Assembly: GCA_013285595.1 (NCBI GenBank)
Contig: JABDHF010000020.1
Coordinates: 1 to 38,080 of the forward strand
Direction: 5' to 3'
Source: Bacteroidota bacterium
GTDB taxonomy: Bacteria; Bacteroidota; Bacteroidia; Chitinophagales; Chitinophagaceae
Length of the DNA: 38,080 bases
In this document: positions 7,308-38,080 of the stretch, piece by piece
Numbering within the stretch: position 1 is the first letter of the stretch
Layout: the number at the start of each line of letters is the position of its first letter
Position numbers and translations under genes: made by a program
The notes under the pieces: model-generated
What the model saw: only the letters and a program-made list of their open reading frames with translations
Told to the model about the DNA's origin: nothing
Database searches by the model: none

Positions 7308-7454
7308 GGGGTGTAGGCCTGTTAACTAACTATTATTAAAGCGAGGGTATTGTTCTGAAAGGCTGTCTGCTTTGCTGCTTCTGAATACAAAATATATCTT
7401 TGCCCAGTGGTCGGCACAATTCACGGCAATTTGAAAGGGCATTCATGAAAAGCT

Positions 7455-7483
7455 TTGGCAAATTGTTTAATTATCTATCTTTA
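7455..7483 (+). promoter_or_regulatory. Probable promoter of the NHL/T9SS gene
   Basis: TTG at 7455-7457, an 18-bp spacer, then TATCTTTA at 7476-7483 (one mismatch from TAnnTTTG). This predicts a start about 25 nt upstream of the ATG at 7517. Confidence 0.5.
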
Positions 7484-7516
7484 TAGCAATAACAGCATAT
7501 CTTTTTAATAGATTTT

Positions 7517-13686: not shown

Positions 13687-14688
13687 TTATTCCGCATCTA
13701 GCTTTTCAATTTCTTTCCTGACCTCATCGATTAGCTGTTGCTCGGTAGGAAGGTACAATTGGTACTTGCTGGCAATAATAGTTTTGTTATTCTCAGGAAG
13801 AGTAAATTTCACCACTGCATCATTTTTGTCTGCACAAAGTAAAATGCCTATTGTTTTATTTTCAAAATCCTGCTTTTCAAAACGGTCGTAATAATTTACA
13901 TACATCTGTAGTTGGCCAATATCTTCATGAGTTAATTTCCTGATTATGATCTCAAAAATTACAAAGCATTGCAAAAGGCGGTTATAGAATACAAGATCAA
14001 TAAAGAAATCATCACCATCAATATGAATGCGTTTTTGCCTTGCTATGAAAGAAAACCCATTTCCCAGTTCTAACAAAAAATCCTGCAAGTGACTAATAAT
14101 GGCACCTTCTAAATCCTTTTCATAATAAGATGCTTCCCTTTTTAATCCCAGGAATTCCAATACCATTGGGTCTTTTATGATATCCTTTGTATCAGAAGGC
14201 AGCTTTTCTTCCCTTGCTACTGCTAATACACTCTTCACATCATTGCTCATCAGCAGCCGTTCGAATAATTGGCTGTTTACTTGTCTTTCCAGTTGCCTTG
14301 CGGTCCAGTTGTTCTTCTCTGTTTCTGCTATATAAAAATCCCTTTTATTTTCATTTTCAATACGAATAAGTATTCGAAAATGTGTCCAACTGAATTGGGG
14401 GCGCACTGCGTCCCTAATTGGGAACATTTTATAAAATTGTTTATAACGGTTTAATTCTCTGTATGAAAATCCGCTGCCAAACTGAATTTGCAAATTTTCA
14501 GCTAAAGATTTAATAAGATACTCACCATATCCCGCCCTTTCTTTTCCCTGTAGTTCTTCTTCAAAGATCTTTTTGCCAATATTCCAATACATCAGCACAC
14601 GCGCTGTATCTACAGAGCGAATTGCATTTTCCCGGGCTCGCGCAATGATCTGTGTTATTTCGTCTATAAGTTCTATTCTTATATCCAT
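13687..14688 (-). CDS. YhcG/DUF1016 family PD-(D/E)xK nuclease-like protein, catalytic Lys replaced
   Basis: The 333-residue protein has the full DUF1016 arrangement: an N-terminal domain (residues 1-150; RVLMYWNIGKKIFEEE, GSGFSYRELNRYKQFY) and a C-terminal nuclease domain (180-330; DGDDFFIDLVFYNRLLQCFV, then HEDIGQLQMYVNYYDR and GILLCADKNDAVVKFTLPE). In active relatives the core Asp is followed by an ExK pair written as IELK or FEIK. Here D231 is present, but the pair reads FEIII: E246 stays and position 248 is Ile instead of Lys. Catalysis may be lost or use another residue. YhcG-like proteins are linked to restriction-modification loci and DNA processing, but no hsdM/hsdS gene is nearby. 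The gene follows tyrS by 18 bp and probably shares its transcript. Confidence 0.85.
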   Translation of the reverse strand: MDIRIELIDEITQIIARARENAIRSVDTARVLMYWNIGKKIFEEELQGKERAGYGEYLIKSLAENLQIQFGSGFSYRELNRYKQFYKMFPIRDAVRPQFSWTHFRILIRIENENKRDFYIAETEKNNWTARQLERQVNSQLFERLLMSNDVKSVLAVAREEKLPSDTKDIIKDPMVLEFLGLKREASYYEKDLEGAIISHLQDFLLELGNGFSFIARQKRIHIDGDDFFIDLVFYNRLLQCFVIFEIIIRKLTHEDIGQLQMYVNYYDRFEKQDFENKTIGILLCADKNDAVVKFTLPENNKTIIASKYQLYLPTEQQLIDEVRKEIEKLDAE

Positions 14689-20776: not shown

Positions 20777-22135
20777 CTACTGTTTCACAAATCGTCTGAC
20801 TTCCAAGCCATTTACCCGGACAAGATAAACGCCTGCCGATAGGGCACTGACATCCACTTGTACCTTGCTTGTATTACACTGGCGACAGACTACTAACTGT
20901 CCTACTATGTTTATGATAGAAATAGAGAAAATTGGATATGGAGCATTTATAGTCAGGTCGGTCTTAACTGGATTGGGGTAAATGGAAAATCGTTTGTTGC
21001 TTTCAGTAGCAGTAATACCCGCCGTGTGAATATAGCCACACGAAGGTTGTGTTACTTTACGGATACGGTCACTCATATAATCTACGATAAATAAGTTGCC
21101 GGATGAATCTGTGGTAATACCGGTTGTAAAATTCAGTTGTGCGGCGGTTGCGGGCGATCCATCCCCACTAAAACCCGCAGTTCCATTGCCGGCAACAGTG
21201 CATATGATTCCGGCGTTATCTACCTTCCTTACTTCGTCATCAGTGCAGAAGTACAAATTGCCTTTTGTGTCCGTAGTTAACCCACTTGTTACGAATTCAA
21301 TTTTAGCATCAGTTGCCATTCCTCCATCGCCTGAATAACCGTCATAGCCCGTCCCGGCATATTGGGAAAGTACCCCGGCAGTATCTACCCGCACAATTGC
21401 TGCATATCCATTTTGCGCACGATAAGGTAGATAATCGAGTTTAATGTAGAGATTGTCGGAGTTATCAACTGTTATATCCTTTATGCCCGATAAACTAGCG
21501 GAAATTGCAGGTACCGGTGTAGAAAAAGGGAAGCTGCCTGATCCAATTCCATCCGTTCCTGCTATAACGTTGATAATGCCGGAAGGATCGATTTTATCAA
21601 CTTCGGCCCAATTAGCTATAAATACATTGCCTGCCCTGTCTATACACATACCCCTAATATCTCCAATGCATGAAGATGTGGCGGTTGCTCCATTAATGAA
21701 GTAGTTGCAGTCTAATTCTCCATTTCCGGCTATAGTAGTTATTATCTGGGTAGCAGCATCTATTCTTCTAACTCGTTTATTGCCTTCATCAGCGAAATAA
21801 ATATTCCCATTCACGTCCACAGCAATATCTTGAGGATAATCTAATTGGGCCTCAGTAGCAGGTATTCCGTCCCCGTTATAGCCTCCCACACCGGTACCTG
21901 CAATGGTTGTTATTATGCCTGCGGTGTTCACTTTACGTATTCTATGGGCTTCGTATTCAGTGATAAACAAATTGCCATCCTTGTCTGCAACACATCCATA
22001 AGGTTCTATGTGTGCCGCTGTCGCTGGGCCTCCATCCCCTAAGCCGGAAAATAAAGAACTTCCGGCCACAGTAGTGATTATCTGCCCCTCTGTTACGATA
22101 GGTAGAAACAGTAATAGGAACAGTAATCTGGTCAT
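20777..22135 (-). CDS. NHL-repeat secreted protein with T9SS type A sorting domain
   Basis: The 452-residue protein has a signal peptide (MTRLLFLLLFLPIVTEGQ) and six NHL-type repeats with the wording TIAGTGVGGYNGDGIPATEAQLDYP...GNIYFADEGNKRVRRI. Repeats 3 and 4 are diverged; repeat 4 carries an insertion (LDYLPYRAQNGYAAIV). Residues ~375-452 form a T9SS type A C-terminal domain beginning FSIYPNPVKTDLTI and ending GVYLVRVNG...RRFVKQ. It is a paralogue of 7517-8896. It is convergent with miaA, 41 bp away, and has a TAnnTTTG element at 22177-22184. The ligand and role are unknown. Confidence 0.9.
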   Translation of the reverse strand: MTRLLFLLLFLPIVTEGQIITTVAGSSLFSGLGDGGPATAAHIEPYGCVADKDGNLFITEYEAHRIRKVNTAGIITTIAGTGVGGYNGDGIPATEAQLDYPQDIAVDVNGNIYFADEGNKRVRRIDAATQIITTIAGNGELDCNYFINGATATSSCIGDIRGMCIDRAGNVFIANWAEVDKIDPSGIINVIAGTDGIGSGSFPFSTPVPAISASLSGIKDITVDNSDNLYIKLDYLPYRAQNGYAAIVRVDTAGVLSQYAGTGYDGYSGDGGMATDAKIEFVTSGLTTDTKGNLYFCTDDEVRKVDNAGIICTVAGNGTAGFSGDGSPATAAQLNFTTGITTDSSGNLFIVDYMSDRIRKVTQPSCGYIHTAGITATESNKRFSIYPNPVKTDLTINAPYPIFSISIINIVGQLVVCRQCNTSKVQVDVSALSAGVYLVRVNGLEVRRFVKQ

Positions 22136-23231: not shown

Positions 23232-23654
23232 TCACACGCCCGGCGGTAAGATATCTTTGCCCGTTCTATAGGCAGTGCCTTTAAACACAGCTACTATCTC
23301 CCCTTTATCGTTGGAGGTAGTAATATCATAGAAGCTCGTTTTGTTACCGGTGTGTATCTCTTTTGCTTCCACGGTCATTACGTCGCCTGCTTTCCCCGCA
23401 CGTATAAAGCTGATATGCACATCCAGCGCCACACTCAGCTGCCCGTGCGAGTTGCAGGCAAAAGCAAATGCGCTATCGGAGCCGGAAAAAACAATGCCTC
23501 CATGCACTATGCTAAAGCCATTGAGCATGTCTTCTTTTACGGTGTAATGCAGCTTGCAATATCCTTCCCTGTATTCATCTACTTCTATACCCATCCACCT
23601 GCTGAAGTTGTCTTTGGCAAGCATGGTTTTGAGTATCTGGTCTGTGTCAGCCAT
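23232..23654 (-). CDS. paaI: PaaI-type hotdog thioesterase
   Basis: The 140-residue hotdog-fold protein hydrolyses phenylacetyl-CoA-type (aryl-CoA) thioesters in its family. The active-site block NGFSIVHGGIVFSGSDSAFAFACNS contains N45, H51-G-G and D60, matching PaaI. Length is normal. It is cytoplasmic, and its start lies 6 bp after the stop of the paaK-like gene, so the two form an operon. PaaI typically rescues CoA when ring-epoxide metabolism stalls. The ring-cleavage genes paaABCDE are not in the window, so the wider pathway is unproven here. Confidence 0.9.
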   Translation of the reverse strand: MADTDQILKTMLAKDNFSRWMGIEVDEYREGYCKLHYTVKEDMLNGFSIVHGGIVFSGSDSAFAFACNSHGQLSVALDVHISFIRAGKAGDVMTVEAKEIHTGNKTSFYDITTSNDKGEIVAVFKGTAYRTGKDILPPGV

Positions 23655-23660
23655 TAGTTC

Positions 23661-24995
23661 TTATTTTAGTTTTCTCAAGTCAACAATACGATTTAGCTTG
23701 CCACCTTCGCTACGTGGTATTTCGTTGATGCCCACAATGGATATGCGCATGGTCAATCCTATATTGTCCTTTATTTTTTTGCTAAAGGCGTGTCCTATAG
23801 CTTTCACCTGTTCATCATTCTGAATATCCGTAGCATCTTCCAGTTTCAACTCATGGAATAATTGTTCTGCCAACTCTACTTTTACTTCTACTTCGTCCAT
23901 AGCGCCTTCGTGGCGCACTATCAGCTGGTAGTTGGCACTTAGCTTTGGCATGCCATTTAAAATATCTTCGACCTGGGTATGAAACAGGTTTACGCCGCGT
24001 ATGATGAGCATGTCATCGGCGCGGCCGCGGATTGGGCCCATCTTTACATGGGTGCGCTTGCCTGCCTTATCGTAATAGATGTTGGTGATATCGTTGGTCC
24101 AGTAGCGGAGCATGGGCATGCCCTTTTTGGTGAGGGTGGTAAATATGAGTACCCCATATTCTCCTTCCTTTACGGGCGTGCCGGTATCTTTATCTACGAT
24201 CTCGGGGAAGTAATGATCTTCCCATATATAGCAACCAGTGCCTTTTTCCTCATAGTCTTCCTGCGATATGCCGGGGCCCATTATTTCGCTGAGGCCATAG
24301 ATATTCGTAGCAGTAAGGCCTAATCCTTTTTCTACTTCTGTACGCACCACCTCTGTCCATGGCTCAGCGCCGAGGATGCCAAATCTGAGGTTGATGTTTT
24401 CGAGGGGTATATTTCTTTTCACCAGCTCCTGTGCCAGTGTTTGTGCGTAAGATGGCGTGCAACAGAGTGCCTCAGGTTTGAAGTCTTGCAGCAGCATTAG
24501 TTGCCGGTCTGTACCTCCACCTGATATGGGCACTACCGTCATGCCCAGCTTCTCTGCGCCATAATGAATGCCGAGGCCTCCGGTGAATAATCCGTAGCCA
24601 TAGGCATTCTGTAATATCATACCTGGTTTGCAGCCTGCGGCGGCCAGGGATCGTGCAACTGTATCTGAAAATACATCGAGGTCATGCTTTGTGTACGCGA
24701 CTACCGTTGGCTTGCCTGTAGTGCCACTGGAACAGTGTATCCTTGCCATTTCCTGCTGCGGCACGGCAAAGAGCCCGAAAGGGTAATTATCGCGCAGATC
24801 TGCCTTCTTTGTGAAGGGAAGCAGGTGGATATCGTCGATGGTTTTTATGGCCAATGGGTGGATGCCATGCTCATCGAGTTTCTTTTTATAAAAAGGTACG
24901 CGGTTGTAGAGGTAGGGTACTAGCTCTGTTAATCGCTCGGTTTGCAGCTGGCGCAGCTTGGCTAACGGGAGCTTTTCAATTTCGGGATGGAACAC
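23661..24995 (-). CDS. paaK: Phenylacetate--CoA ligase family protein
   Basis: The adenylate-forming enzyme (444 residues from the chosen start) has PaaK hallmarks: FHPEIEKLPLAKLRQLQTERL at the start, YLYNRVPFYKKKLDEHG, the P-loop HCSSGTTGKPT (about 88-97), NIYGLSEIMGPG and RGRADDMLIIRGVNLFHTQVE. It ligates phenylacetate or a related aryl acid to CoA using ATP. The frame is open from an ATG at 25109, but that would overlap the DUF4838 gene by 60 bp and add 38 unrelated residues. The GTG at 24995 starts exactly where the family begins and sits about 20 bp after a TAnnTTTG element at 25016-25023, so it is preferred. Confidence 0.92.
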   Translation of the reverse strand: MFHPEIEKLPLAKLRQLQTERLTELVPYLYNRVPFYKKKLDEHGIHPLAIKTIDDIHLLPFTKKADLRDNYPFGLFAVPQQEMARIHCSSGTTGKPTVVAYTKHDLDVFSDTVARSLAAAGCKPGMILQNAYGYGLFTGGLGIHYGAEKLGMTVVPISGGGTDRQLMLLQDFKPEALCCTPSYAQTLAQELVKRNIPLENINLRFGILGAEPWTEVVRTEVEKGLGLTATNIYGLSEIMGPGISQEDYEEKGTGCYIWEDHYFPEIVDKDTGTPVKEGEYGVLIFTTLTKKGMPMLRYWTNDITNIYYDKAGKRTHVKMGPIRGRADDMLIIRGVNLFHTQVEDILNGMPKLSANYQLIVRHEGAMDEVEVKVELAEQLFHELKLEDATDIQNDEQVKAIGHAFSKKIKDNIGLTMRISIVGINEIPRSEGGKLNRIVDLRKLK

Positions 24996-25015
24996 GGCGG
25001 AAAGATTGGCTATAC

Positions 25016-25023
25016 CAAATTTA
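25016..25023 (-). promoter_or_regulatory. -7 element TAAATTTG for paaK-paaI
   Basis: Exact TAnnTTTG match on the minus strand in the 53-bp gap between the DUF4838 stop and the GTG at 24995. It separates the paa pair from the polysaccharide module and supports the GTG start. Confidence 0.55.
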
Positions 25024-25048
25024 CTTATTTGGCAGCAGATACGCGTTA

Positions 25049-27307
25049 TTACTGCACGTATATTTCGTCGCAGGCTATCATAGGTTTTTTGTTTGCCCTG
25101 TAGCGCCATGATGGCACCGCATTGAGGTTATTTGCAGTAACCTTTATGTACCTGATCTGCTCAGATGGATGGGTGTTAGCTAATGAATATTCCTTGACTG
25201 CCAGTACATCGTCTGCTGTGTTTGTGATAGATAATGGTGACGCCATAGCGTGGTATTTAACGCCATCGGTTGACACTTCGACTGTAACCTTTTCTGGCTG
25301 GAAAATCCAGTGGCGGGGATCATCGAGGAAGTGCATCATTACTTTATTTACCGTGGTCGATTTGCCAAGGTCTATCGTTGCCACCATGGGCAGGCCATAA
25401 AAGCAAAGCCAATTGTAGCTGAAATCTGTGTACCCACGGTTGCCATCGGTCAATGTCCGGGTACCTTTTGCAGGGTAGTCTTCGGTAAAGCCATATTGCA
25501 GTGACACGGCAGCACCTAAGGCCTTTGTGGGGATAGCCCCGTCTTTAAATATGCCATTCCATTCTTCCTGGTACTGATCTGGGTTCAGGCCTACTTCGGC
25601 CAGCTCTGTTACTCCTGCTTTTTTGCAATTGGCCACAAAGCGTGTTACTTTCTCTGCAAACTTCGGATCGACGATCCACTTACCGGATCTGTCTTTTATT
25701 AAAAAGCCATGCTTCTCTATGCCGTAGAAACGGGCCTGTTGCAGTACTACATACTCCAGTGGCAGTCGTGCTCTTGTAACCCTATCCAGCAGGGTAGGGT
25801 TGCCTTCTACTGCGGCCTCGGCATTATCGAATACAGTGCTGTATTCCTCTATAGATTCAGGAGACAAGTACGATTTCCATTCGTTGATAGGGTTGCCGTA
25901 GATGTCGAGCTTGCGTTTGGATGATAGCAGCCTGTCCTGTACTTCATTGATATATTGCTGCAGAGATGGCGCTGCGGAGCCGTAATAATCTTTTAAGAAG
26001 GTACTTATGAGTTGTTTGGTATCAGCTTTATCGTCAGCTAAGAGCTTTGCCATTACGTAGCTTCTTAGTTCGGCCCATTCGCCGTAGGTATCGCCGCTGC
26101 CCTGTGCAAAGATGCCTTTTACGCCGTTGCTTTTCAGGAAATGAATGTTTGGTGCGAGGGTAGGAAAGTTCGGGAAGGGTGCGAGGTAGTTAGTGAACTC
26201 AACAATGTAGTCCCAGATAAAGAGGTTGTTGGTTAGCGCGTTCCACGCTTTAAGGTCGTTCCGGAATGCTCCGGCAGAGCCTTCTTCAGCCAACGGCTTA
26301 TCTCGGTAGGCGTCTATGTCGCTGAGGAATACGTATACGTTATCAGCCGGCTTTATGTTTTTGGGTGCTTTGTGGGTGTAACCGTAGGCGAGGGTAGTGA
26401 ACTTCTGATCCGGGAATACGGCTGCTACTTTGTTCACAAAGTTTACCAGGGAGCCGGATGGTACGCCACCGTATTTATTATCTATGGCTTTGCATTTATC
26501 GCAGGTACAGTTGCCGGCATCATCGTTTGGGCTTATAGACCAATACATGGCATCGGGGTTCTTTGCCATACGCTTCTTTAATTCTGCTACTACTATCTTG
26601 AACACATCTTCGTTGCTCAGGCATAACTGGGTGGCTTCGCGCTTGCCACCTACCTGCGAATAATATTCTGGGTGGGTGCTAAAGTAAGTTTGAGCAGGTA
26701 CCAGCTTATTGAAGGAATGGCCCCATATGCCCCATAAGTCATCGAGGCGTTGCAATTGATTCCATTCTAAATATTCGGCATCGTGCGAGGCGGGGTAGTA
26801 GACTTCGCGGTATACGAACTGGGGTTTGCGTTCATCGTAAATATCGCCGGGTATGCGTATTTTTTTTGAAGCAGGAATTAGGGCTGGTTCGCTATTCAGC
26901 TTTTTGCAACCCAGGTAATTTTCAAGAAAAGCATAGATGCCATAGATGAGGCCTTTGCCGCTGCCACCACAAAAAATGAGGTCTTTGCCATCGGTCTTGA
27001 ACAGGGATGCCTCGTCGGCCATCTTGCCCTTTGTGGCCCTGTCGCCTTTGGCTGTGTGGCCGATATAGATGGATGGGGTGGTGGTATTTTTAGTTTCCGG
27101 TATCACCGGGAGGTCGACACCGGAAACTTTTTGTATATAGCTTTGGAGGACTTTGGCTGAGCGCTGCTCTATTGCCGTGGGCTCTTTAGGGACGACTATC
27201 TTGTAGTCAGACCTGCCATTATTTGTTAGTATTACTTCCTGTGCAGTGCCATTGCACGCGCTCATAGTTATTAATGCTACAAGCAATCCATACAGCCTCA
27301 ACATCAT
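25049..27307 (-). CDS. DUF4838 lipoprotein with C-terminal F5/8-type (discoidin) domain
   Basis: The 752-residue protein is a probable lipoprotein: hydrophobic N-terminus ending MSAC (Cys18). Residues ~25-160 resemble the alpha-glucuronidase N-terminal (GH67-like) beta domain. Residues ~165-460 are DUF4838, with WSISPNDDAGNCTCDKC (N261, D262, D263, Cys267/269/272) and FIWDYIVEF. Residues ~640-752 look like a carbohydrate-binding discoidin domain (KVTVEVSTDGVKYHA, IRYIKVTANN). DUF4838 proteins are related to glycoside hydrolases but their substrates are largely unknown. Position at the 3' end of the GT2/TPR-barrel genes (13-bp gap) suggests it trims or binds the exported polymer, much as PgaB does in poly-GlcNAc systems. 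That role is inference. Confidence 0.85.
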   Translation of the reverse strand: MMLRLYGLLVALITMSACNGTAQEVILTNNGRSDYKIVVPKEPTAIEQRSAKVLQSYIQKVSGVDLPVIPETKNTTTPSIYIGHTAKGDRATKGKMADEASLFKTDGKDLIFCGGSGKGLIYGIYAFLENYLGCKKLNSEPALIPASKKIRIPGDIYDERKPQFVYREVYYPASHDAEYLEWNQLQRLDDLWGIWGHSFNKLVPAQTYFSTHPEYYSQVGGKREATQLCLSNEDVFKIVVAELKKRMAKNPDAMYWSISPNDDAGNCTCDKCKAIDNKYGGVPSGSLVNFVNKVAAVFPDQKFTTLAYGYTHKAPKNIKPADNVYVFLSDIDAYRDKPLAEEGSAGAFRNDLKAWNALTNNLFIWDYIVEFTNYLAPFPNFPTLAPNIHFLKSNGVKGIFAQGSGDTYGEWAELRSYVMAKLLADDKADTKQLISTFLKDYYGSAAPSLQQYINEVQDRLLSSKRKLDIYGNPINEWKSYLSPESIEEYSTVFDNAEAAVEGNPTLLDRVTRARLPLEYVVLQQARFYGIEKHGFLIKDRSGKWIVDPKFAEKVTRFVANCKKAGVTELAEVGLNPDQYQEEWNGIFKDGAIPTKALGAAVSLQYGFTEDYPAKGTRTLTDGNRGYTDFSYNWLCFYGLPMVATIDLGKSTTVNKVMMHFLDDPRHWIFQPEKVTVEVSTDGVKYHAMASPLSITNTADDVLAVKEYSLANTHPSEQIRYIKVTANNLNAVPSWRYRANKKPMIACDEIYVQ

Positions 27308-27320
27308 AAAACGGCATCAT

Positions 27321-30242
27321 TTAAAATCTATGCGTCAGCGTTACTGCAATATCGTATTGGTTTCTGTAGTTAAGCAGGTTAATACGGGTATTGTACCATG
27401 TACCAAATATGCCGAGTGTTGTTTTATAATGGAACTGCTTAGAGTACCCTGCACCTACACTAACCGATGGATACTGCAAGATATGTGACACCTGGTAGTT
27501 GCGGCTGAAGTCATCAGGAGCTGTACCATAACCCATAACTGCGGTGAAGAATGATGCACGGTTTTCAACATAGAACCTTGTAGTGAACAATACAGAATAA
27601 TAGTTAGCCGAAGTATCGAACGGATTATTAGGAAGATCACCGGTGAAAGTCTGAGACTTGAAGTTGATATAATAACCGCGGAGGTTAAAATAGAACTCCT
27701 TCATTTCTTTAGACACAGAGCCTACAACCGACCACAACTGGCCACTGTCGGCTTTCAGGTAACGGCCCCCAAGTTCTGCGTCCCAACCTTTCTTTAAGCT
27801 GTGATATAATGACAAGCCAAAACGGTCGGTAGGGAATATCTTGCCATCGGGAGACCAGCCGGCTACGCCGTAGGCATACCAACGTGGATTGAAGTTGAAG
27901 TAGGTTTCACCTTCAAACATATAACCTGTGCCTGTAGGGCGGCCTGCATAGTCAACACGGGCCGTAACTACACCACGGCTGTACTTGCGGGAATACTGAA
28001 CGGCTGCCATACCATAAACAGACGAAGTAGCAGAGTCTATGATCTTGGTATGTACGTACAGGAACCCAACTTCATTTTTAAGGAAGTGGCTATAGAGGAA
28101 CTCTGAATACTCGATATTCGAAAGGTCATAGGGAGTTAGTCTAACCAATGTATCTGCAGCATGCCATGCATCTTCCCAGTCTCTTTCAAATTCGTATACC
28201 TGGGCCCTTTTCAGCAGGAAGAATGGCGAATTAGGGAACATCATACGGCCTCTCTGTATCAGCGCAAGTGCCTGGTCGTAATCGCCCCTGGTGATCAATA
28301 AGCTGATGGTGTAGAATAATGGCAGCGTATCATTTGGCGCTACTTCTAACGCACGGTTGAATTCTATTAAAGCGCTGTCTTCGTTATTGCCTATCAGGTA
28401 TTGCTGGCCGGCAGCTGCTAACTGATCTTTGTAAGCGTTGCGATAGCGAATGTTGTAAGGATAGTCGGCATAAAGGCCACCTGATATTTCTGTTGCAGCG
28501 CCATAGTTCTGTGCATCTGCATAGATAGATGACTTTTTAAGCAGCAGGTCTTTATCGTTTGGATAATAGTTAAGCGCCTGGTCTGCATAAAAAATTGCAG
28601 AATCATAGTGCTTGTTTGCCGCCTGTATGTTAATCATATAGTTCAGCGCGTCCATATTCTCGGGCTGCTTGTCGAGCACTTCCTGGAGGATGGATACTGT
28701 ACCGTAATAATCATCGTATTGCATTGACTGGCGGCTTGCCGCTAATGACTGCTCTACATAGCTTACCAGGTATTGCTTGCTATCCGGGTATTTTGACAAC
28801 AGTTCTTTAGTGATCACAGAAGCTTCTGCGTAATGTTGGTATGCTTCCAGTGTTGCAGCTTTCTTGTACAATAATTGTTCATCGCCAGGGTAGTAAGTGA
28901 GGGCTTCGTCTATTGTGTGTAAAGCCTCGTCATACCTTTTCTGCTGCGTGTAAGCATTGATCAGATAGTTGATAGCGGCCATGTTAGCGTGGTCGTAGAA
29001 AAGCACTGTGTTGAGCGCTACGGTAGCACTATCAAAATCGTTCTGAGCTATATATTGTTTAGCAGCGAGTGTAGTGAGGTCGAGGAAGCTTTGTTTGTTT
29101 GCAGCGCTTGGATTGCTTTTGTATATCCTTTCTGCAAGCTGGGATGCCTGGTCATACCTTTTCAGGCTTTCGAGGATGCCGAGTTTTTTAAGCGTAAGCT
29201 CTGAATTGTTCGGGTAGCGTTTCAGCGCTACATTCACCCATTGCAATGCGTCAGTAAGCAAACCACGGCTAAAAGCTATGTTTATGAGGTAATTCAGTGC
29301 ATCTGTATTGCCCGGGTCTCTTTCAAGCACAGACTGAAACTGCAGGTAAGGGTCAGTATTCATGTAATACCGGCCAGCTTCCATGCGGATGTAGATATTT
29401 AGCTTCTGAACCTCAGGATTACCCGGGTAAAGCTTCATCAGCTTTTCAACAACTTCAACAGCCTCTACATAGCGAGACATAGCATCGAGTATGCTTACTT
29501 TCTTTATCAGGAATTCGTAAGAGTTTGGTGAAGACTGCAGCGCACGGTTAGTATAATCGAGTGAGCTTTCGTAAGTACCAGACTTAACATCGAGCGAGAA
29601 TACAGCCTGTAATGCTTCTTTGTTTAACGGATCTTGCTCCAGCACTGCTTCATAAGCGCGCTTAGATATTTCCAGGTATCCGCGATGGGCATACTGGCGG
29701 GCGAGGGTCAACTTATAGTCGAGGTATACACTGCGTATGTAAGAATCAGTAGAATATCTTTCAAATAAGTAATCGGCAAGTTTTGAGCTTTCTATCCAGT
29801 CACCTTCTTTGCTGTAGATGTCGAGTTTTTTCAGCAGCAGGTCTCGGTCGTTAGGGTAGTATTTAAGGCCCATATCTGCATATTCCAAAGCCTGTAAGTA
29901 GTTACAGGCAACGGCTTCAAGGTTTACGAGATAAACGTAGGCATCTTTGTAACGGGGATTTTTCTGAATAACATAGTTGAGCTCTGTACGGGCGCTATCT
30001 ACCTTGCCTGCAAGGCCATAGGCGCGGCCCAGCAACAGGTGTATATCCAGGTTGGTAGGTGAGATGTCTATTGCCTCGTGGCAAAGGTTAATAGCCTTTT
30101 GGTAATGCTTCAGATCTATTTCTTTCCGGGCTTCTTTATACAGATCATCAGAAGAGCCTGACTTCTTCAGCCATTGCGCATTTGATTGAAAGCTAATTAA
30201 GACCAGCAGTAACAGTAGTACCAACTTTGGGGTTGATCTCAT
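27321..30242 (-). CDS. TPR-repeat protein with YaiO-type outer-membrane beta-barrel (PgaA-like architecture)
   Basis: The 973-residue protein has a signal peptide (KLVLLLLLVLISFQSNAQ), a long array of TPR helices over about residues 30-690 (recurring YPNDRDLLLKKLDIYSKEG, NMDALNYMINIQAANKHYDSAIFYADQAL), and a C-terminal barrel over ~725-973. The barrel reads as YaiO family: DYAGRPTGTGYMFEGETYFNFNPRWYAYGVAGWSPDG near its start, ending NQYDIAVTLTHRF. A periplasmic TPR superhelix joined to an outer-membrane barrel is the layout of exopolysaccharide exporters such as PgaA, BcsC and AlgK/AlgE. With the adjacent synthase (31-bp gap), a secretin-like glycan export role is the best inference; the barrel size was not modelled. 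Confidence 0.88.
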   Translation of the reverse strand: MRSTPKLVLLLLLVLISFQSNAQWLKKSGSSDDLYKEARKEIDLKHYQKAINLCHEAIDISPTNLDIHLLLGRAYGLAGKVDSARTELNYVIQKNPRYKDAYVYLVNLEAVACNYLQALEYADMGLKYYPNDRDLLLKKLDIYSKEGDWIESSKLADYLFERYSTDSYIRSVYLDYKLTLARQYAHRGYLEISKRAYEAVLEQDPLNKEALQAVFSLDVKSGTYESSLDYTNRALQSSPNSYEFLIKKVSILDAMSRYVEAVEVVEKLMKLYPGNPEVQKLNIYIRMEAGRYYMNTDPYLQFQSVLERDPGNTDALNYLINIAFSRGLLTDALQWVNVALKRYPNNSELTLKKLGILESLKRYDQASQLAERIYKSNPSAANKQSFLDLTTLAAKQYIAQNDFDSATVALNTVLFYDHANMAAINYLINAYTQQKRYDEALHTIDEALTYYPGDEQLLYKKAATLEAYQHYAEASVITKELLSKYPDSKQYLVSYVEQSLAASRQSMQYDDYYGTVSILQEVLDKQPENMDALNYMINIQAANKHYDSAIFYADQALNYYPNDKDLLLKKSSIYADAQNYGAATEISGGLYADYPYNIRYRNAYKDQLAAAGQQYLIGNNEDSALIEFNRALEVAPNDTLPLFYTISLLITRGDYDQALALIQRGRMMFPNSPFFLLKRAQVYEFERDWEDAWHAADTLVRLTPYDLSNIEYSEFLYSHFLKNEVGFLYVHTKIIDSATSSVYGMAAVQYSRKYSRGVVTARVDYAGRPTGTGYMFEGETYFNFNPRWYAYGVAGWSPDGKIFPTDRFGLSLYHSLKKGWDAELGGRYLKADSGQLWSVVGSVSKEMKEFYFNLRGYYINFKSQTFTGDLPNNPFDTSANYYSVLFTTRFYVENRASFFTAVMGYGTAPDDFSRNYQVSHILQYPSVSVGAGYSKQFHYKTTLGIFGTWYNTRINLLNYRNQYDIAVTLTHRF

Positions 30243-30273
30243 CGTGTAATTTAGTTGTAATTAATGTTTAAAG

Positions 30274-31803
30274 TTAGCCAACCTTTACAGCACCTTTTTT
30301 CTTAGCTCCTGTAAAGCCCTGTCGCTGCATATCGCCCCACACATGTTTCCGTCCTACTATAAAATTAAAATATCCTTTAAGGGCAAAGAACATTATAAGC
30401 GGATGATACAGGAATGGCTCTAAAAAAGCCATCAGGCATAATCCTATTGTTTCGCCCCATGTTTTATAATACTTAAATGTGATCTGATCCCATAAGAGCG
30501 CCACTGTGGTGATCATTATGGAATAAGTGTACACAAATATTAACAAGATCAGGGCAAAAGGCCAGTTTATCTGATGCGTCAATATCAGGTAAATGTAAAA
30601 AAGAATTCCAGAAAATTCAATGATTGGCGCTAATAGTTCGAAAAAAAAGTGATAAGGGAAAACGATCATACCCATCCTGCCGTAGCGGGGGTTGAAAATA
30701 ACCCTTCTGTGTATGCTCATGAGCTGAGCTAACCCACGTCCCCACCTTGCGCGCTGGCGGCCAAATACCTTCAGGGTAGTAGGGCCTTCGGTCCAGCAGA
30801 GTGTAACGGGTACATACTTAACAGAATACTTCTTCTTATTATCTTTCATGTATGAACCCATACGCGTAATTAGGTCCATATCTTCAGCAAGCGACAGCGG
30901 ATCGTACCCACCGGCCTTGATAGCTACATCCTTATCAAACATACCCAAACCACCAGATACGTTTGGTACGGAATTGATCTTATCCCAACCCATTTTACCG
31001 AGTACAAACGAGCGGATATATTCCATCTCTTGGAAGCGAGGCAGGAAGCGGCGCGGAGGGCGCACGCGTATCATCAGGCCTTCATCGACATCGCAAGAGT
31101 TGACCATGCGCAGGGTAGCGCCGGTGGCAATAACCCTTTTAAAATCTTCCTGTATCTGCACATCACCGTTTATTTCCCTTACAGTGCTGGTTTCCTCATC
31201 CATAAAGGGCTTGATGAGCTTTATGAGCGTGTCTTTATCGAGGATACAATCCACATCTGTACAAAGGAAGTAATCGAATACGGAGATGTTGATACCGGCG
31301 TTAGAGGCATCGGCCTTACTCTTTCCGTTCACTTTATCAACGACCGCAAGCTTATCGTAGGCAAGGTTTGTGGACTTGAATATTCTCTTTACAGGCTTAC
31401 AGTTGAGGCGCTGCATGTAGGCATATTCTACCTCTACAAGCTCGAACTCTTTGATCAGTTTTTCCAGTGTATCGTCGGTACTACCGTCGTTAATAATGAT
31501 CACCTCAAACTTAGGATAGTTAAAGGTGAGCAATGAACGCACGTTAGAGATAATGGTGATGCCCTCATTAAAGGCTGGTGCGATAACGGAGATGCCCGGC
31601 GCCAGCGGCGACTCTACAATAATATTGTAGTCGACCGAGGCATTTTTTTTCATGTACCTGCGTATAGATACCAGTGATAATAACGCCAGTGTGCCGTAAG
31701 CCACAAGCAATACAATACCATATAGGAATACGGCAAACTGGTAATAAGTACCTAGTATTTGCCAGAAAATCCCTTTTGTAAAAAAGTCTATAATTACTTT
31801 CAT
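30274..31803 (-). CDS. Processive family 2 glycosyltransferase, PgaC/IcaA-like
   Basis: The 509-residue membrane enzyme has N-terminal helices (residues ~20-45) and a GT2 catalytic domain. All synthase motifs are visible: SVIAPAFNEG (72-81), NDGSTDDT (D106), DxD as TDVDC (D183/D185), the acceptor-base motif AEDMD (E308/D309), and QRARW (Q350-W354). Further membrane helices follow at ~370-470. This set indicates a processive beta-polymer synthase of the poly-GlcNAc/cellulose type. The donor sugar cannot be read from sequence. There is no PilZ domain, so cyclic-di-GMP control is not supported. It is followed by the TPR-barrel gene and preceded, across 155 bp, by the HEAT gene. Confidence 0.9.
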   Translation of the reverse strand: MKVIIDFFTKGIFWQILGTYYQFAVFLYGIVLLVAYGTLALLSLVSIRRYMKKNASVDYNIIVESPLAPGISVIAPAFNEGITIISNVRSLLTFNYPKFEVIIINDGSTDDTLEKLIKEFELVEVEYAYMQRLNCKPVKRIFKSTNLAYDKLAVVDKVNGKSKADASNAGINISVFDYFLCTDVDCILDKDTLIKLIKPFMDEETSTVREINGDVQIQEDFKRVIATGATLRMVNSCDVDEGLMIRVRPPRRFLPRFQEMEYIRSFVLGKMGWDKINSVPNVSGGLGMFDKDVAIKAGGYDPLSLAEDMDLITRMGSYMKDNKKKYSVKYVPVTLCWTEGPTTLKVFGRQRARWGRGLAQLMSIHRRVIFNPRYGRMGMIVFPYHFFFELLAPIIEFSGILFYIYLILTHQINWPFALILLIFVYTYSIMITTVALLWDQITFKYYKTWGETIGLCLMAFLEPFLYHPLIMFFALKGYFNFIVGRKHVWGDMQRQGFTGAKKKGAVKVG

Positions 31804-31958
31804 GTTATGACAATCAATTATTGATCCACGTGTGCGTATTCACTGCTTTTTCCTTCCGGTAACTTAAAATATAGGGTCGTAAGGTAGAAATATTTCTTTA
31901 AATTTTTATTAAAACAACTTCTAAAAATAAATATGCACTATATTAAAGCAACAATTGG

Positions 31959-33113
31959 TTAATACTTTATCAGTGGGTTTTGACAATGCTTGATGATCAA
32001 CTGATGATCTTCTTCTGTAGTTTCCATCAATTCTTCGATCATCAACCTGGACTGGTGCGTATTGTGCTTAATGATAGAGCGTGCGGCGTTCATCTGTATG
32101 TCAAAGTTGGTAGAATACAGGAACTCATGCTTAAGGAACTCGAGATAGTTGCCAGAACCAATACGGCCAAGCGCTTTCAGTATTTCTATCTGGCAATTTA
32201 CCGGCTGGCTGTTGTATATGCGTACCAGTGTTTCTTCCGACATTTCTGCAGACAGTTTGCCCAGGCAATTAATGGCATTGGCACGGAAAAAATGGTCCTT
32301 TGTTGTTAGCAGGTCCATTACGGCAGGTATTGCATTTTGCTGATCGTAATGAGCTATTAATTTCAGGCAAAAAGATACGATACTCTTATTAGTAGAGTAG
32401 CTTACCCAGCGCGAGAAATTGGGGATAGCAATATCCTTTGTAGTGGTAATGATCTTGAACATTTCCAGCTGGTCCCATGGTAGCAGCGGCTCTGTGGCAA
32501 TATCGAAAAATTTGAATGGATCGTTCTTACTTAGCTGGATGTATGCATTGCGGGAAACCGCTCTCAGCGTGGGGTTGGTGCTATTGGTAAGCGGCAGCAG
32601 GGTAGAGTCGGAGATCGGAATATCCATCTGTGTAAGCTCTACAATTGCTTTGATCTTGGTTTCCCATTTGTACTTTCTCAGCTTCTTGAATGAGTCCTCT
32701 ACGAGGTCCATATCTATGTATAGCTTTCTGAGCAGGTCACCTACTTCGCCACGGAAGTTTTTGCGGTAGCGGATGAGTATATCAATAAGCACCTGGCGAA
32801 CGCCGGGCTTTTTGTACAACTTATCAGATATAGCGGCCTGGTCGAATTCTATTTCATCGACAAGCATGTCTTTTCCAAGGTTCTCATTGAGGAGTACCTG
32901 CTCTGTGATCAGGTCTTCGATAATGGGGCTCAGGTAAGCCAGTCTTTTCTGATAAACATAGCCATTATACCTCCTAAAAAGAATAGAACCATAAGCTGCC
33001 AGCGTAGATACAATGGCGATAAATATAAACGCTAAAGCTATTTCTATTGAAAGTGGAAGTAAGCTAAATTGTTCGTAAGCCTGGAATAAAAGATTAACCA
33101 GATCATTCCACAT
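31959..33113 (-). CDS. Membrane-anchored HEAT-repeat protein
   Basis: The 384-residue protein has one N-terminal transmembrane helix (residues ~23-46, IEIALAFIFIAIVSTLAAYGSILF) followed by a cytoplasmic helical region. From residue ~150 the helices have HEAT-like pairing (WETKIKAIVELTQMDIPISD, HFFRANAINCLGKLSAEMSE, CQIEILKALGRIGSGNYLEFL). HEAT arrays act as protein scaffolds. The gene sits 9 bp after the response regulator stop and 155 bp before the GT2 synthase. It may couple the regulator to the synthase, taking the place of PgaD-like accessory subunits. Function not established. In the 31804-31958 gap no exact TAnnTTTG element was seen. Confidence 0.82.
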   Translation of the reverse strand: MWNDLVNLLFQAYEQFSLLPLSIEIALAFIFIAIVSTLAAYGSILFRRYNGYVYQKRLAYLSPIIEDLITEQVLLNENLGKDMLVDEIEFDQAAISDKLYKKPGVRQVLIDILIRYRKNFRGEVGDLLRKLYIDMDLVEDSFKKLRKYKWETKIKAIVELTQMDIPISDSTLLPLTNSTNPTLRAVSRNAYIQLSKNDPFKFFDIATEPLLPWDQLEMFKIITTTKDIAIPNFSRWVSYSTNKSIVSFCLKLIAHYDQQNAIPAVMDLLTTKDHFFRANAINCLGKLSAEMSEETLVRIYNSQPVNCQIEILKALGRIGSGNYLEFLKHEFLYSTNFDIQMNAARSIIKHNTHQSRLMIEELMETTEEDHQLIIKHCQNPLIKY

Positions 33114-33122
33114 GTGCAGGAG

Positions 33123-33524
33123 TTATTTTTTTTTAGTAAAAAACTGGGTTTTGATATTTTTATCTGCTATCAGTTTCCTGATGCGGATGAGCAGCTCTGT
33201 AGCCATAATAGGTTTTTTCAGGTAATCGTCGGCCCCAAGCTGGAAGGCTTCTGTAATAGTTTCTTCATTGCCTACAGACGAAACTACTATTATACCTACG
33301 TTCTTTGTTGATTCATGGTTGCGGAGCCGGCTAACCACCTCAAGCCCGCTGGTATGGGGGAGCATAAGGTCAGTGATCACAATATCGTAGGTAGCATTAT
33401 CCATCATTTCAAATGCCTCTTTGCCATCCTTTGCTGTAATTACATTAAAACCCTCCTTATTCAGGATATTTTTAATGGCCTTCAGCATTATTTCATCATC
33501 TTCAATTACTAAAATATTCGGCAT
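33123..33524 (-). CDS. CheY-like single-domain response regulator
   Basis: The 133-residue protein is a bare receiver domain. Acidic pocket E8-D9-D10 (VIEDDE), phospho-acceptor D52 (DIVITDLMLP), S82/S83 (VVSSVG) and K104 (YLKKP) are in the expected places. It has no DNA-binding or enzymatic output domain, so it works by protein contact. No histidine kinase gene is adjacent. It is first of the minus-strand polysaccharide set, 9 bp ahead of the HEAT gene, and is a plausible on/off switch for it. The basic C-terminal tail (FFTKKK) is short. Confidence 0.9.
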   Translation of the reverse strand: MPNILVIEDDEIMLKAIKNILNKEGFNVITAKDGKEAFEMMDNATYDIVITDLMLPHTSGLEVVSRLRNHESTKNVGIIVVSSVGNEETITEAFQLGADDYLKKPIMATELLIRIRKLIADKNIKTQFFTKKK

Positions 33525-34153: not shown

Positions 34154-37100
34154 ATGAAAAAAACGTTACCTACCTTTCTGCGCAATCTATTGTTATCTGC
34201 GGCATTGCTGTTGCTTGGCTTTTCATCGCGGGCATCGCACATTGTGGGCGCGGAGCTAACGTATAAATGGCTTTATTGCAATACTTACGTGGTAACTCTG
34301 GCCATATACGGTAACTGTGGTGCATCAAGCACTGCGGCATTTAACTGCCTTGATGGCACTTCTGGTTATGCAACGCCAGTGATATGTATCTTTGATGGTA
34401 ATACTTCAGTTACCAGCATCACATTGACGAAGCAAATGCCCTTCTCAGGTCTTGAGGTAACGCCTGTATGTCCTGATTCTATAATGTACGACGCCTGCCA
34501 TATACCCACCTCCCTTACTCCTGGGATCAAAAAATTCATTTATACCGACACGTTTACTTTTCCTCATAATTCAGCAGTCTGGAGGCTGATATTTAGCGGG
34601 GATATTGGCCCATGTTCTTCCCCGGGGCGTGCAGGCGATATTAGTAATTTACTCGGTGGTAGTACCCTTGCACTGGTAGATACGCTAAATAACACCTTCT
34701 CTAATACAAGAGGGCATAATTCAAGCCCGGTGCTAACAGTGGAGCCTGTGCCCTTCTTTTGCCCGAACACGGAGTCTTGTTATAACCCAGGGGCAGTGGA
34801 TGTTTACGATGTAAATACCTCAGACGAGCCGTCGGGTGATAGCTTGAATTTTTCGCTGGTAGCAGCGAACCAGGGAACTGGCTCGTGCGCGGGTACCGGA
34901 GGATTCGTTGGCTATAATCCTACGTTTACCTGCCCGGGGGGTACAACGATATATTCCGGCAGCAACCCGCTGTTATTAGCGGACTGTTCGGCTTCAAGCT
35001 TTGCGTTCGACCAAACCACGGGGCAATTGTGCTTTAATGGCCAGGCGCAGAGGTCGGTGGTAGTGTATAATATAGATGAATACCGCCATGATACCGTTAA
35101 TAATATACATACAGTAGCAGGGCTGGGCGGAAGCTCTTTCAGCGGCGACCATGGCCCGGCGTTGTCGGCTTTACTGAATAAACCTGCCGGTATACGCACT
35201 GATAAGTTGAATAATATTTATTTTGCAGACCAGGCTAATAACAGGATCCGTAAAGTAGACAATCTTGGTTTTATCACCACTATTGCGGGTACTGGCTTTA
35301 CCGGTTATTGCGGTGACGGGATAGCGGCAACTGCAGCGAAGTTAAATAACCCGGTAGGCGTAGCGGTAGATACAGCGGGCAATGTGATCTTTGCTGATGA
35401 CAATAATAACGCGATCAGGAAAATAAACGTGTCGACCGGTGTTATTACCACTATTGCAGGCAACGGCACACCAGGGTATGAAGGCGATGGCGGGAATGCG
35501 AAAGGCACAATAACTACATTTGCCGGTACGGGTGCAGCTCCGTTTTTTGGTACGGGGATACCTGCTGTGAGCGCCAACATTCATAACCCGGCCGGTATAT
35601 GCAAAGACGTGGCGGGCAATGTATATGTGTCGGACTACGCTAACAACCGCATCCGTATGATCTCAATCGGTGGCATTATTACCACATTGGCTGGCGGGGC
35701 TACTGCAGGCTATACAGGAGACGGAGGGCCAGCGTCAGCTGCGTTATTAAATAACCCCGAAGGAATATACATCTCCGGTAATGCCTTATATTTTGCAGAC
35801 AATGGTAATCATGTTGTCCGCAAGATCGATTTTTCTACGGTTGGTTTTCCGATCACAACGGTTGCCGGTACGGGAACTGCAGGGCTGGGGGCCGACAATA
35901 TAGCTGCAACTTCCTCTGCATTAAATCATCCACACTCCGTATTTGTGGAAGGCTCCGGCACAGCCCTTAAAATCTATTTCACCGATGGAGGTAACAACCG
36001 TGTACGTTTAATTGATGGATTCGCTAATGTTTACACTCTTACCGGAAACGGAGTTGCCGGCTTTTCCGGTGAAAACGTTCTTGCCAGTCTGCCAACAGTT
36101 GAGGCAAACAATCCTTATGGCATTTGGAAAGACCCGGCGGGCAGGGTGTTCTTTACCGATGCCGGCAATAACCGTGTGCGTGTAATATCACCGAGTGGTT
36201 TCATAAATACCTACGCCGGGGGAACCGGTGTACCTGCATTTATAGGAGACGGCGGATCAGCGACATCTGCCAGGTTTAATAACCCTACAGATGTTATTAT
36301 GAATTCTTTCGGTGATCTTTTTGTTGCTGACAATGGTAATAACTGTATACGTAAAATTGCGGCATGCGACAGTATAGTGACAACGGCGATAGGCAGACCG
36401 CCACTTCCTGGTTTTGCAGGTGATGGCATGTCGCCCGATTCTACTAAATTAACTAACCCATCATTTATATGGCTGGATGCATTTACCGGCACAATGTATA
36501 TTTCGGACTGGGGCAATAACCGTGTGCGTGTGCTTGCACCGTGCGAGCTTAATCACCCTACAGGTGTGTTTGTAGATAATGCCAACAACATATTCATCTC
36601 TGATGCCGGCAACCAGATCATCCGTAAAATATCGGGGTCTACCGGTATTATCAGCAGATTTGCGGGCAACCAGGGAGTTACCGGTTTCTCTGGCGACGGC
36701 TCGTCGGCAGTAGCTGTCGGTTGTGCATTAAGCAGCCCTAGCGGTGTATTTGCGGACAATAGCGGCAATGTATTTATTGCGGACGCTGGCAATAACAGAA
36801 TTCGCGAAGTGAACACAGCAGGTATAATCAGCACGGTAGCAGGGAGTGGATTAACAACCCATACAGGTGATAACTGCATCGCCCTGGCAACTGCAGTAGG
36901 TTTAAATAGCCCTTCGGATATTAGTGTAGATAACGCCGGTAACCTGTTTATCGCAGACCGCCTTAATAACTGTATTCGTAAAGTGACTACCGGTACCAAC
37001 ATCATAGAAACTGTTGCCGGTACAGGCGTTGCAACTTTTGGTGGAGAAGGGATTGCGGGCTACATGGCTATGTTGAATAACCCTTCTTTCCTTTGCCTGG

Positions 37101-38080
37101 ACCCTTCAAAAAATGTGCTAATATCAGACTTTATGAATAACCGCGTGCGCAGGCTTGACTATGCCAGCACGGTAAACAGGGTACTGGTAGGCACTATGCA
37201 GCGCGAGATGACGTTTAAAGTATTAAACGCGTGTACCATTGTTTCACCTGTGGGGCAAGTGGATTCTATTACAGGTACTACCGGCCAATTCGTTGATCCA
37301 ACTGATCACATACATATTACTGCGTGCCAGTACACAGGAGATTTTATTCTTCATATGAATCCTCATGAGCCAGATACGGCATATCACATTATTGTTACGG
37401 CGAGTGGTTTAAATACTGGTTTTAACTTTACTATTGATAGCGATAATACCAATCATCCGCATGCTACGGTTACTGGTAATACGGGCGTTATTGCGCCGGG
37501 CATTTATACTTTCTACCTGACGTATACCGATAACCACTGCCCGCTTGTAGGCACACAAACCCAGCCATTCACCGTGCAGATATACCCTGTACCATCTATT
37601 ACTGATTCACTCATTTCGCCGGCAACGTGTTCTGACTCTGCAGACTACCGGATAATTCCTGGTGGATATGGCAGCCCATGGACAATAAAGGTCTCCACGC
37701 TCGCGTCTCCTTTTGATACGTTTGCAGTCTTTGCCAATGATACCGGCGCCTTTGCAGATAGCCTTAAACCTCTGCCAACAGCTTATGGCAGCTATGTGTT
37801 TACTATATATACGTCAGTATCTAATCAGTGCGCTAAGGGCGATACAATAACGCCTGCAGTTCCGAGCTCGTCAATTACCGCCTCATTTGTAAATCCAAAT
37901 TATTGTGGCGCGCATGATCATTTGGATGGAGGCAGGATATTTATTAATGACCTGCCGCCAGGGCTGCAGGATACGCTTATCTATACGAAGTTTGGCGTTT
38001 TGCAACCGCGACAACCGTTTGTGTCGTCGCCGACGGGCACCGATACGCTGTTCAGCCTTATAAAAGCAGACTATACCATA
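34154..38080 (+). CDS. Very large NHL-repeat surface protein, 3' end outside the window
   Basis: The frame is open from the ATG at 34154 to the last base (1,309 codons, no stop). After a signal peptide (LLLSAALLLLGFSSRAS) comes an N-terminal module HIVGAELTYKWL...TLAIYGNCG, with a DEPSGDSLNFSLV segment, common in large Bacteroidota surface proteins that end in gliding-type (CHU_C/T9SS type B) domains. Residues ~315-1006 hold about 13 NHL repeats (for example GTGFTGYCGDGIAATAAKLNNPVGVAVDTAGNVIFADDNNNAIRKI). Two are shortened, near 35500 and 36545. After ~1007 the sequence is Ig/PKD-like. The last domain, and hence the T9SS signal, is beyond the window. It is probably a surface adhesin or structural protein. 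Reverse-strand ORFs across it are shadows. Confidence 0.9.
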   Translation, partial: MKKTLPTFLRNLLLSAALLLLGFSSRASHIVGAELTYKWLYCNTYVVTLAIYGNCGASSTAAFNCLDGTSGYATPVICIFDGNTSVTSITLTKQMPFSGLEVTPVCPDSIMYDACHIPTSLTPGIKKFIYTDTFTFPHNSAVWRLIFSGDIGPCSSPGRAGDISNLLGGSTLALVDTLNNTFSNTRGHNSSPVLTVEPVPFFCPNTESCYNPGAVDVYDVNTSDEPSGDSLNFSLVAANQGTGSCAGTGGFVGYNPTFTCPGGTTIYSGSNPLLLADCSASSFAFDQTTGQLCFNGQAQRSVVVYNIDEYRHDTVNNIHTVAGLGGSSFSGDHGPALSALLNKPAGIRTDKLNNIYFADQANNRIRKVDNLGFITTIAGTGFTGYCGDGIAATAAKLNNPVGVAVDTAGNVIFADDNNNAIRKINVSTGVITTIAGNGTPGYEGDGGNAKGTITTFAGTGAAPFFGTGIPAVSANIHNPAGICKDVAGNVYVSDYANNRIRMISIGGIITTLAGGATAGYTGDGGPASAALLNNPEGIYISGNALYFADNGNHVVRKIDFSTVGFPITTVAGTGTAGLGADNIAATSSALNHPHSVFVEGSGTALKIYFTDGGNNRVRLIDGFANVYTLTGNGVAGFSGENVLASLPTVEANNPYGIWKDPAGRVFFTDAGNNRVRVISPSGFINTYAGGTGVPAFIGDGGSATSARFNNPTDVIMNSFGDLFVADNGNNCIRKIAACDSIVTTAIGRPPLPGFAGDGMSPDSTKLTNPSFIWLDAFTGTMYISDWGNNRVRVLAPCELNHPTGVFVDNANNIFISDAGNQIIRKISGSTGIISRFAGNQGVTGFSGDGSSAVAVGCALSSPSGVFADNSGNVFIADAGNNRIREVNTAGIISTVAGSGLTTHTGDNCIALATAVGLNSPSDISVDNAGNLFIADRLNNCIRKVTTGTNIIETVAGTGVATFGGEGIAGYMAMLNNPSFLCLDPSKNVLISDFMNNRVRRLDYASTVNRVLVGTMQREMTFKVLNACTIVSPVGQVDSITGTTGQFVDPTDHIHITACQYTGDFILHMNPHEPDTAYHIIVTASGLNTGFNFTIDSDNTNHPHATVTGNTGVIAPGIYTFYLTYTDNHCPLVGTQTQPFTVQIYPVPSITDSLISPATCSDSADYRIIPGGYGSPWTIKVSTLASPFDTFAVFANDTGAFADSLKPLPTAYGSYVFTIYTSVSNQCAKGDTITPAVPSSSITASFVNPNYCGAHDHLDGGRIFINDLPPGLQDTLIYTKFGVLQPRQPFVSSPTGTDTLFSLIKADYTI

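Follow-up and report, generated by a model that had tools for sequence, protein, structure and literature searches.

The five-gene set and its conservation

The window analyzed here, that is, the whole 38,080-nucleotide stretch of contig JABDHF010000020.1 from a member of the Chitinophagaceae (phylum Bacteroidota; assembly GCA_013285595.1, a 2.93-Mb draft of 146 contigs that is 59.6% complete), carries a set of five minus-strand genes at positions 25049 to 33524 that very likely encodes a synthase-dependent polysaccharide machine. In the order of transcription, these genes encode a response regulator (RR) that consists of a single receiver domain (133 amino acids [aa], positions 33123 to 33524), a HEAT-repeat protein that has a single membrane segment at its N terminus and is presumed to serve as a cytosolic adaptor (384 aa, 31959 to 33113), a processive-type polysaccharide synthase of glycosyltransferase family 2 (GT2; 509 aa, 30274 to 31803), a presumed exporter that combines a TPR solenoid with a C-terminal YaiO outer membrane barrel (973 aa, 27321 to 30242), and a DUF4838 lipoprotein (752 aa, 25049 to 27307). 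The intergenic gaps are 9, 155, 31, and 13 bp. An earlier note on this sequence had listed the same open reading frames (ORFs), with the same order, gaps, and domains; the recomputed coordinates and the matches in Pfam and NCBIfam agree with it. Thus, its CheY-like regulator matches Response_reg (108.4 bits over residues 4 to 115) and its HEAT protein matches HEAT_2 (40.9 bits).

The GT2 protein matches Pfam GT2 models with up to 60.7 bits and shares 80 to 86% identity with the GT2s of the same genus. In the alignment, it retains the motifs NDGS, DVDC, AEDMD, and RQRARW, the complete catalytic complement that had been claimed for it, and hydrophobic segments flank its catalytic part at both ends. 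In the TPR/YaiO protein, the YaiO domain scores well above the cut-offs of both Pfam (104.7 bits against 23.9) and NCBIfam (66.1 bits against 32), as do the TPR models above theirs. The last 340 aa were modeled (pLDDT of 88.3) as a 14-stranded barrel, which is not the undersized pore that the earlier note had allowed for. Its fold matches include CymA, OmpG, FadL-type channels, PelBC, and BcsC; PgaA is not among the 50 matches listed, which excludes nothing. The C-terminal residue of the TPR/YaiO protein is Phe in 33 of 33 cases.

The DUF4838 assignment (329.9 bits) is complemented by a structural model (pLDDT of 90.0) with fold matches to GH115, GH84, GH67, GH20, and CBM32, the last of these corresponding to a C-terminal domain at approximately residues 592 to 752. 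The modeled fold resembles that of glycosidases, and the protein may have a related activity. The discoidin domain that had been named alongside DUF4838 scores 24.0 and 23.1 bits in the protein of the window, below the Pfam cut-offs of 27.8 and 28.2, and is above cut-off in a relative from C. filiformis (33.5 bits); in the window, it is represented by the CBM32-like domain of the model. The lipoprotein call is consistent with the lipobox stretch LITMSAC, whose Cys18 is conserved in almost all of 32 aligned sequences, even if the strict lipobox pattern is found in only 29 of 63 relatives.

A scan with the GT2 alignment of the genomes in named records yielded 382 loci, of which the best 80 were kept, and their gene order was read by blastp on their ORFs. 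The closest of these loci come from records labeled Flavipsychrobacter, Taibaiella, Chitinophagaceae, and uncultured Bacteroidetes. The complete order RR-HEAT-GT2(-GT2)-TPR/YaiO-DUF4838 is present in 60 of the 80 loci, including two with broken frames (L147 and L155). The remaining 20 comprise 15 loci cut by contig ends, two with only ~1 kb of sequence left (L114 and L130), and three clear exceptions: L131 and L136 lack the TPR/YaiO gene after GT2, and L180 lacks DUF4838. The DUF4838 gene lies on a separate contig in the genomes of L084 and L083 (G222 and G231, respectively). In a second sample of 40 loci, DUF4838 was found in 33, and ORF families that do not belong to the set reached at most 7. 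Because the whole order recurs in 60 of 80 loci while no outside family exceeds 7 of 40, the conservation of the five-gene order is far beyond chance, so the conserved neighborhood that the earlier note had asked for in other Bacteroidota does exist. Among the loci with unusual features, L147 contains three GT2 ORFs and a fragmented TPR gene; in L155 (C. pinensis YS-16), the TPR and DUF4838 genes are each split over two frames. Locus L140 (CAJCIQ010000176.1) comes from a record titled Beijerinckiaceae, and its set resembles those of the Chitinophagaceae, so this may be a mislabeled bin.

The HEAT protein is encoded in 26 of the 34 other genomes of the source genus, and of the eight genomes that lack it, five have a completeness of 96% or more; therefore, the set is not universal in the genus. 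Across the family, 55 of 195 genomes encode this protein at an E value of 1e-10 (60 matches, 28 of them at 1e-80 or better). The DUF4838 protein could, in principle, be a passenger that stands outside the machine and has its own role in the uptake of foreign glycans. DUF4838 genes are indeed found outside the set (L196, L197, and L198), and L180 does without one. However, 66 of 69 neighboring pairs of TPR/YaiO and DUF4838 genes are separated by no more than 150 bp, and the pairing persists in deep relatives with 24 to 35% identity, which makes a passenger role very unlikely.

Synthase copies and sister sets

In one respect, the window differs from most of its relatives. Two GT2 genes in tandem, which the earlier note missed, are the usual state at the related loci, and the window has one. 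In the GT2 tree, 64 first-copy GT2s form a single clade (support of 0.971) with no single-copy locus inside it and L097 beside it, and the single GT2s of the source genus and its neighbors belong to the second type. Both types retain the catalytic motifs. In a tree of 76 HEAT sequences, the single-synthase group that includes the window is one clade (7 sequences, bootstrap of 77). Parsimony requires five changes on this tree, which would fit one duplication and four losses. The distance from the HEAT gene to the next GT2 gene has a median of -1 bp over 73 pairs, so that these genes typically touch or overlap; in the clade of the window, it ranges from ~93 to 628 bp. Since the window GT2 is placed with the second type and the HEAT-GT2 spacing is widened in this clade, the clade has lost the first GT2, and the 155-bp gap at positions 31804 to 31958 (minus strand) marks where the lost gene had been. 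Its machine would run on one of two ancestral synthases. A recent remnant of the first GT2 in this gap was considered and rejected: when eight first-copy GT2s were compared by tblastn with the gap of the window and those of eight relatives, no match rose above chance level (best E value of 0.39), which leaves room for an old remnant. Second-type GT2s of several genera carry a CxxCG-type insert (e.g., L071, positions 7239 to 8786, plus strand) that neither the window nor its nearest relatives have. In L105 (4493 to 6292, plus strand), the GT2 ORF has a C-terminal tRNA_anti-like (OB-fold) domain, probably through fusion with a former neighbor.

More distant HEAT relatives comprised 18 loci from the same family (17 of the sister type and L184, which has DUF4838) and 20 loci from other families of the phylum; neighbors were counted by eye from the gene maps. 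A GT2 gene immediately follows the HEAT gene in all 38 loci. The RR gene immediately precedes HEAT in 14 of the 17 family sister loci and 14 of the 20 other-family loci, and a YaiO-type gene is present within the locus in 14 and 19 of them, respectively. The combination RR-HEAT-GT2, which the earlier note did not describe, is thus the core of the system across the phylum.

Many of these sister sets carry a PF00884 protein, also absent from the earlier note, in place of DUF4838. Such RR-HEAT-GT2-PF00884-YaiO sets (L078, L100, L218, and others) share with the window the RR, the HEAT protein, the GT2 (41% identity between the window protein and that of L078), and the YaiO barrel, and differ from it in the PF00884 protein, a short TPR part, and, in several cases, adjacent genes for kinases or Hpt proteins. 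In L186 (5845 to 9390, minus strand; 1,181 aa) and L227 (7117 to 10554, plus strand; 1,145 aa), the PF00884 domain is fused to the GT2. GT2 ORFs of about the same length as these fusions, known by length alone, are found in L181, L182, L183, and L193. In L226 (6237 to 18999, plus strand), a PF00884-type set is arranged in tandem with a DUF4838-type set. A family of 386-aa proteins that recurs next to the YaiO gene of sister sets (L078, 11016 to 12176, minus strand, and relatives) has no match in Pfam at an E value of 1e-5 or in NCBIfam at 1e-4.

The PF00884 proteins bear on the nature of the product. They show weak matches, at most 41.8 bits and far under the cut-offs, to phosphoglycerol and lipoteichoic acid synthases, families that act on envelope glycans. 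Accordingly, the glycan made by the GT2 and handled by the barrel might be a short one that stays in the periplasm or bound to the envelope rather than a secreted polymer. This is rather improbable, given the outer membrane barrel with a long TPR part and its fold matches to the exporters PelBC and BcsC. A secreted polymer made by a synthase-dependent machine remains the preferred reading.

Relation to known polysaccharide systems

The earlier note likened the set to a poly-N-acetylglucosamine (PNAG) machine, and the arrangement does parallel that of the Pga system. Like the window, E. coli pgaABCD (L201) combines a GT2 synthase, an exporter with TPR and barrel parts, and a periplasmic protein with a glycosidase-type fold in comparable positions. 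Unlike Pga, the window set includes the RR and the HEAT protein, its barrel was modeled with 14 strands (that of PgaA has 16), and, as had been noted, it lacks PgaD and a polysaccharide deacetylase: no match to either was found with Pfam or NCBIfam at an E value of 0.01 among the five proteins and the products of two downstream genes (for the RR, among the best 25 of 101 NCBIfam matches). The window GT2 scores 107.0 bits with the PgaC-type model TIGR03937 (cut-off of 422.3), and the TPR/YaiO protein scores 54.4 bits with the PgaA-type model TIGR03939 (cut-off of 366.65). Because both curated cut-offs are missed and there is no PgaD or deacetylase in the set, its membership in the Pga system was rejected.

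A divergent system of the Pga type that still makes PNAG, with unrelated parts in place of PgaD and PgaB, would nevertheless account for the TPR-barrel exporter, for the chitosan-binding modules among the CBM32 fold matches, and for the fact that PgaC_IcaA ranks first among the NCBIfam matches of either GT2 type (105.8 bits for a first-copy GT2); blastp also finds PgaC, at ~23% identity to the window GT2. Yet the same genome encodes a 1,127-aa fusion of GH18, polysaccharide deacetylase, and GT2 domains (G000:C18; L203, 5693 to 9076, minus strand) that matches the PgaC model with 194.6 bits, which is also below the cut-off, and is a better PgaC-like candidate than the window GT2. In a midpoint-rooted tree of 14 GT2s without support values, the window GT2 falls with this fusion and the GT2s of the sister sets, apart from PgaC, YaiP, BcsA, and NfrB. 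A specific PNAG identity is therefore not supported, and a divergent Pga system is unlikely. A hexosamine polymer of some kind as the product of the window set is a broader proposition that stands at nearly even chances.

Other E. coli systems offer partial parallels. In the Bcs cellulose system (bcsABZC and bcsG; L235), the synthase, the glycosidase BcsZ, and the TPR-barrel exporter BcsC parallel the window proteins, and the transferase BcsG may be viewed as the analog of the PF00884 protein of the sister sets. Bcs differs in its GT2 branch and in its control by cyclic di-GMP (c-di-GMP), which acts on BcsA and for which BcsE is so annotated. In the yaiP-yaiX-yaiO region (L202), the genes for a GT2 and a YaiO-family barrel lie close together, as in the window; unlike in the window, an acyltransferase (whose gene is broken in K-12) and a putative deacetylase are encoded nearby, and the annotated neighbors include no TPR, HEAT, RR, or DUF4838 protein. 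The Nfr (N4 glycan) system (nfrB-nfrA; L236), like the window, pairs a GT2 with a large outer membrane exporter for a product of unknown nature; its synthase NfrB is controlled posttranslationally, as is proposed for the window GT2, but by c-di-GMP through an MshEN domain (PMC8669469). The window has the RR and the HEAT protein beside its GT2 instead, and blastp finds no match between NfrB and this GT2 at an E value of 0.001. The set thus appears to work like a synthase-dependent exopolysaccharide machine that is not assigned to any named system. No description of an RR-HEAT-GT2-YaiO-DUF4838 set was found in the literature searched, which consisted mostly of open-access texts and does not establish its absence from print.

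In such a machine, the GT2, by its family, motifs, and hydrophobic segments, can be expected to build a polymer, perhaps of the hexosamine type, and to thread it through the inner membrane. The TPR solenoid would guide the polymer through the periplasm to the 14-stranded barrel, which would let it out, as the domain order and the model suggest, and the DUF4838 lipoprotein might trim or otherwise tailor it.

Possible control of the synthase

The RR has no output domain recognized by Pfam, and Asp9 and the phosphoryl-accepting Asp52 are retained in all 71 aligned regulators, that of the window included. As for the HEAT protein, the membrane segment reported in the earlier note is matched by an N-terminal hydrophobic segment in all 33 relatives; in 32 of them, Lys and Arg residues are more abundant after this segment than before it, and a later hydrophobic stretch is seen in only 3. 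Under the positive-inside rule, basic residues flank a membrane segment on its cytosolic side, so the HEAT solenoid is presumed to reside in the cytosol. No PilZ domain is detected by Pfam in the five proteins, as the earlier note had stated. GGDEF domains were found in 3 of 60 genomes of the family and not in the source draft, itself only 59.6% complete, which makes control without c-di-GMP plausible.

With a receiver-only RR, a conserved Asp, an anchored and presumably cytosolic HEAT protein, and rare GGDEF domains, the most economical control route would lead from the RR through the HEAT protein to the neighboring synthase, and gating of the synthase in this manner has a prospect not far short of even. 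A kinase or Hpt relay encoded elsewhere would phosphorylate the RR, and the RR-HEAT route would take the place held by c-di-GMP in Pga, Bcs, and Nfr. Next to the RR, the sister sets L078, L100, and L218 encode hybrid kinases that contain receiver and Hpt domains; L193, L221, and L225 encode Hpt proteins there, and L183 encodes a receiver-Hpt protein.

Several observations weigh against this route. A deep branch (L184, L216 with less than 1 kb upstream, L228, L233, and L097) has HEAT-GT2-TPR/YaiO-DUF4838 sets for which the sequence read shows no RR, and AraC-type genes are found upstream in two of these (L184 and L228). The RR is therefore not needed in every such set, and these sets argue against a universal RR-HEAT route; the suggestion of the earlier note that control may run without c-di-GMP is plausible. 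The set is present in G062, one of the three genomes in which a GGDEF domain was found. No kinase gene was found among the window ORFs scanned. Finally, no RR-HEAT or HEAT-GT2 fusion was detected by Pfam in six longer or divergent HEAT proteins (L188, L222, L231, L234, L223, and L218), which have HEAT matches only; the other HEAT proteins scanned were those of the window and L184.

These data also leave a serious, if somewhat doubtful, case for a polysaccharide machine in which the RR is a relay partner for other regulators and the HEAT protein is only a structural scaffold, with no gating of the synthase. Besides the RR-less sets, this would explain the sister loci in which the RR gene is located elsewhere or on the opposite strand (L181, L182, L199, L229, L230, and L232). 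It fits less well with the RR position directly upstream of HEAT in most distant loci, with the median RR-HEAT distance of 9.5 bp over 70 pairs, and with the lack of an output domain. Taken as a whole, a synthase-dependent polysaccharide machine that is possibly gated by a phosphorelay through the RR and the HEAT protein is probably the best explanation of the set.

No further genes could be added to the set at its borders: candidate members were rejected, as the ORF families that recur in the 40 loci are either antisense to the set genes or confined to 7 loci at most. The gene for a PaaI-type thioesterase is the next matched gene past DUF4838 in 7 of the 40 relatives, all from the same genus, and is taken as mere neighborhood. 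In the window, a PaaK-like coenzyme A ligase gene (23232 to 25109, minus strand), matched in none of the 40, lies between the two, and the start of its ORF overlaps DUF4838 by 61 bp. Elsewhere, the window encodes three NHL-repeat proteins (7517 to 8896, plus strand; 20777 to 22135, minus strand; and 34154 to 38080, plus strand, with an open end), the first two with Por-type secretion tails, and a DUF1016/YhcG-type PDDEXK nuclease (13687 to 14688, minus strand).

With GGDEF domains rare in this family, the conserved RR-HEAT-GT2 core offers a direct answer to how its polysaccharide synthesis may be switched, one that can be tested in culturable Chitinophaga species. The core would in addition supply functions for three groups that are poorly characterized, namely, this HEAT family, the long TPR-YaiO proteins, and DUF4838, the last of which is mentioned in a single paper of the literature searched. 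A tentative generalization, somewhat less likely than not, is that of a Bacteroidota-wide class of synthases switched posttranslationally by a phosphorelay, which would run from a kinase through Hpt and a receiver-only RR to a membrane-tethered HEAT protein and the adjoining GT2, with exchangeable tailoring modules (a DUF4838 glycosidase or a PF00884 transferase). If true, such a phosphorelay switch would be the two-component counterpart of the c-di-GMP switch.

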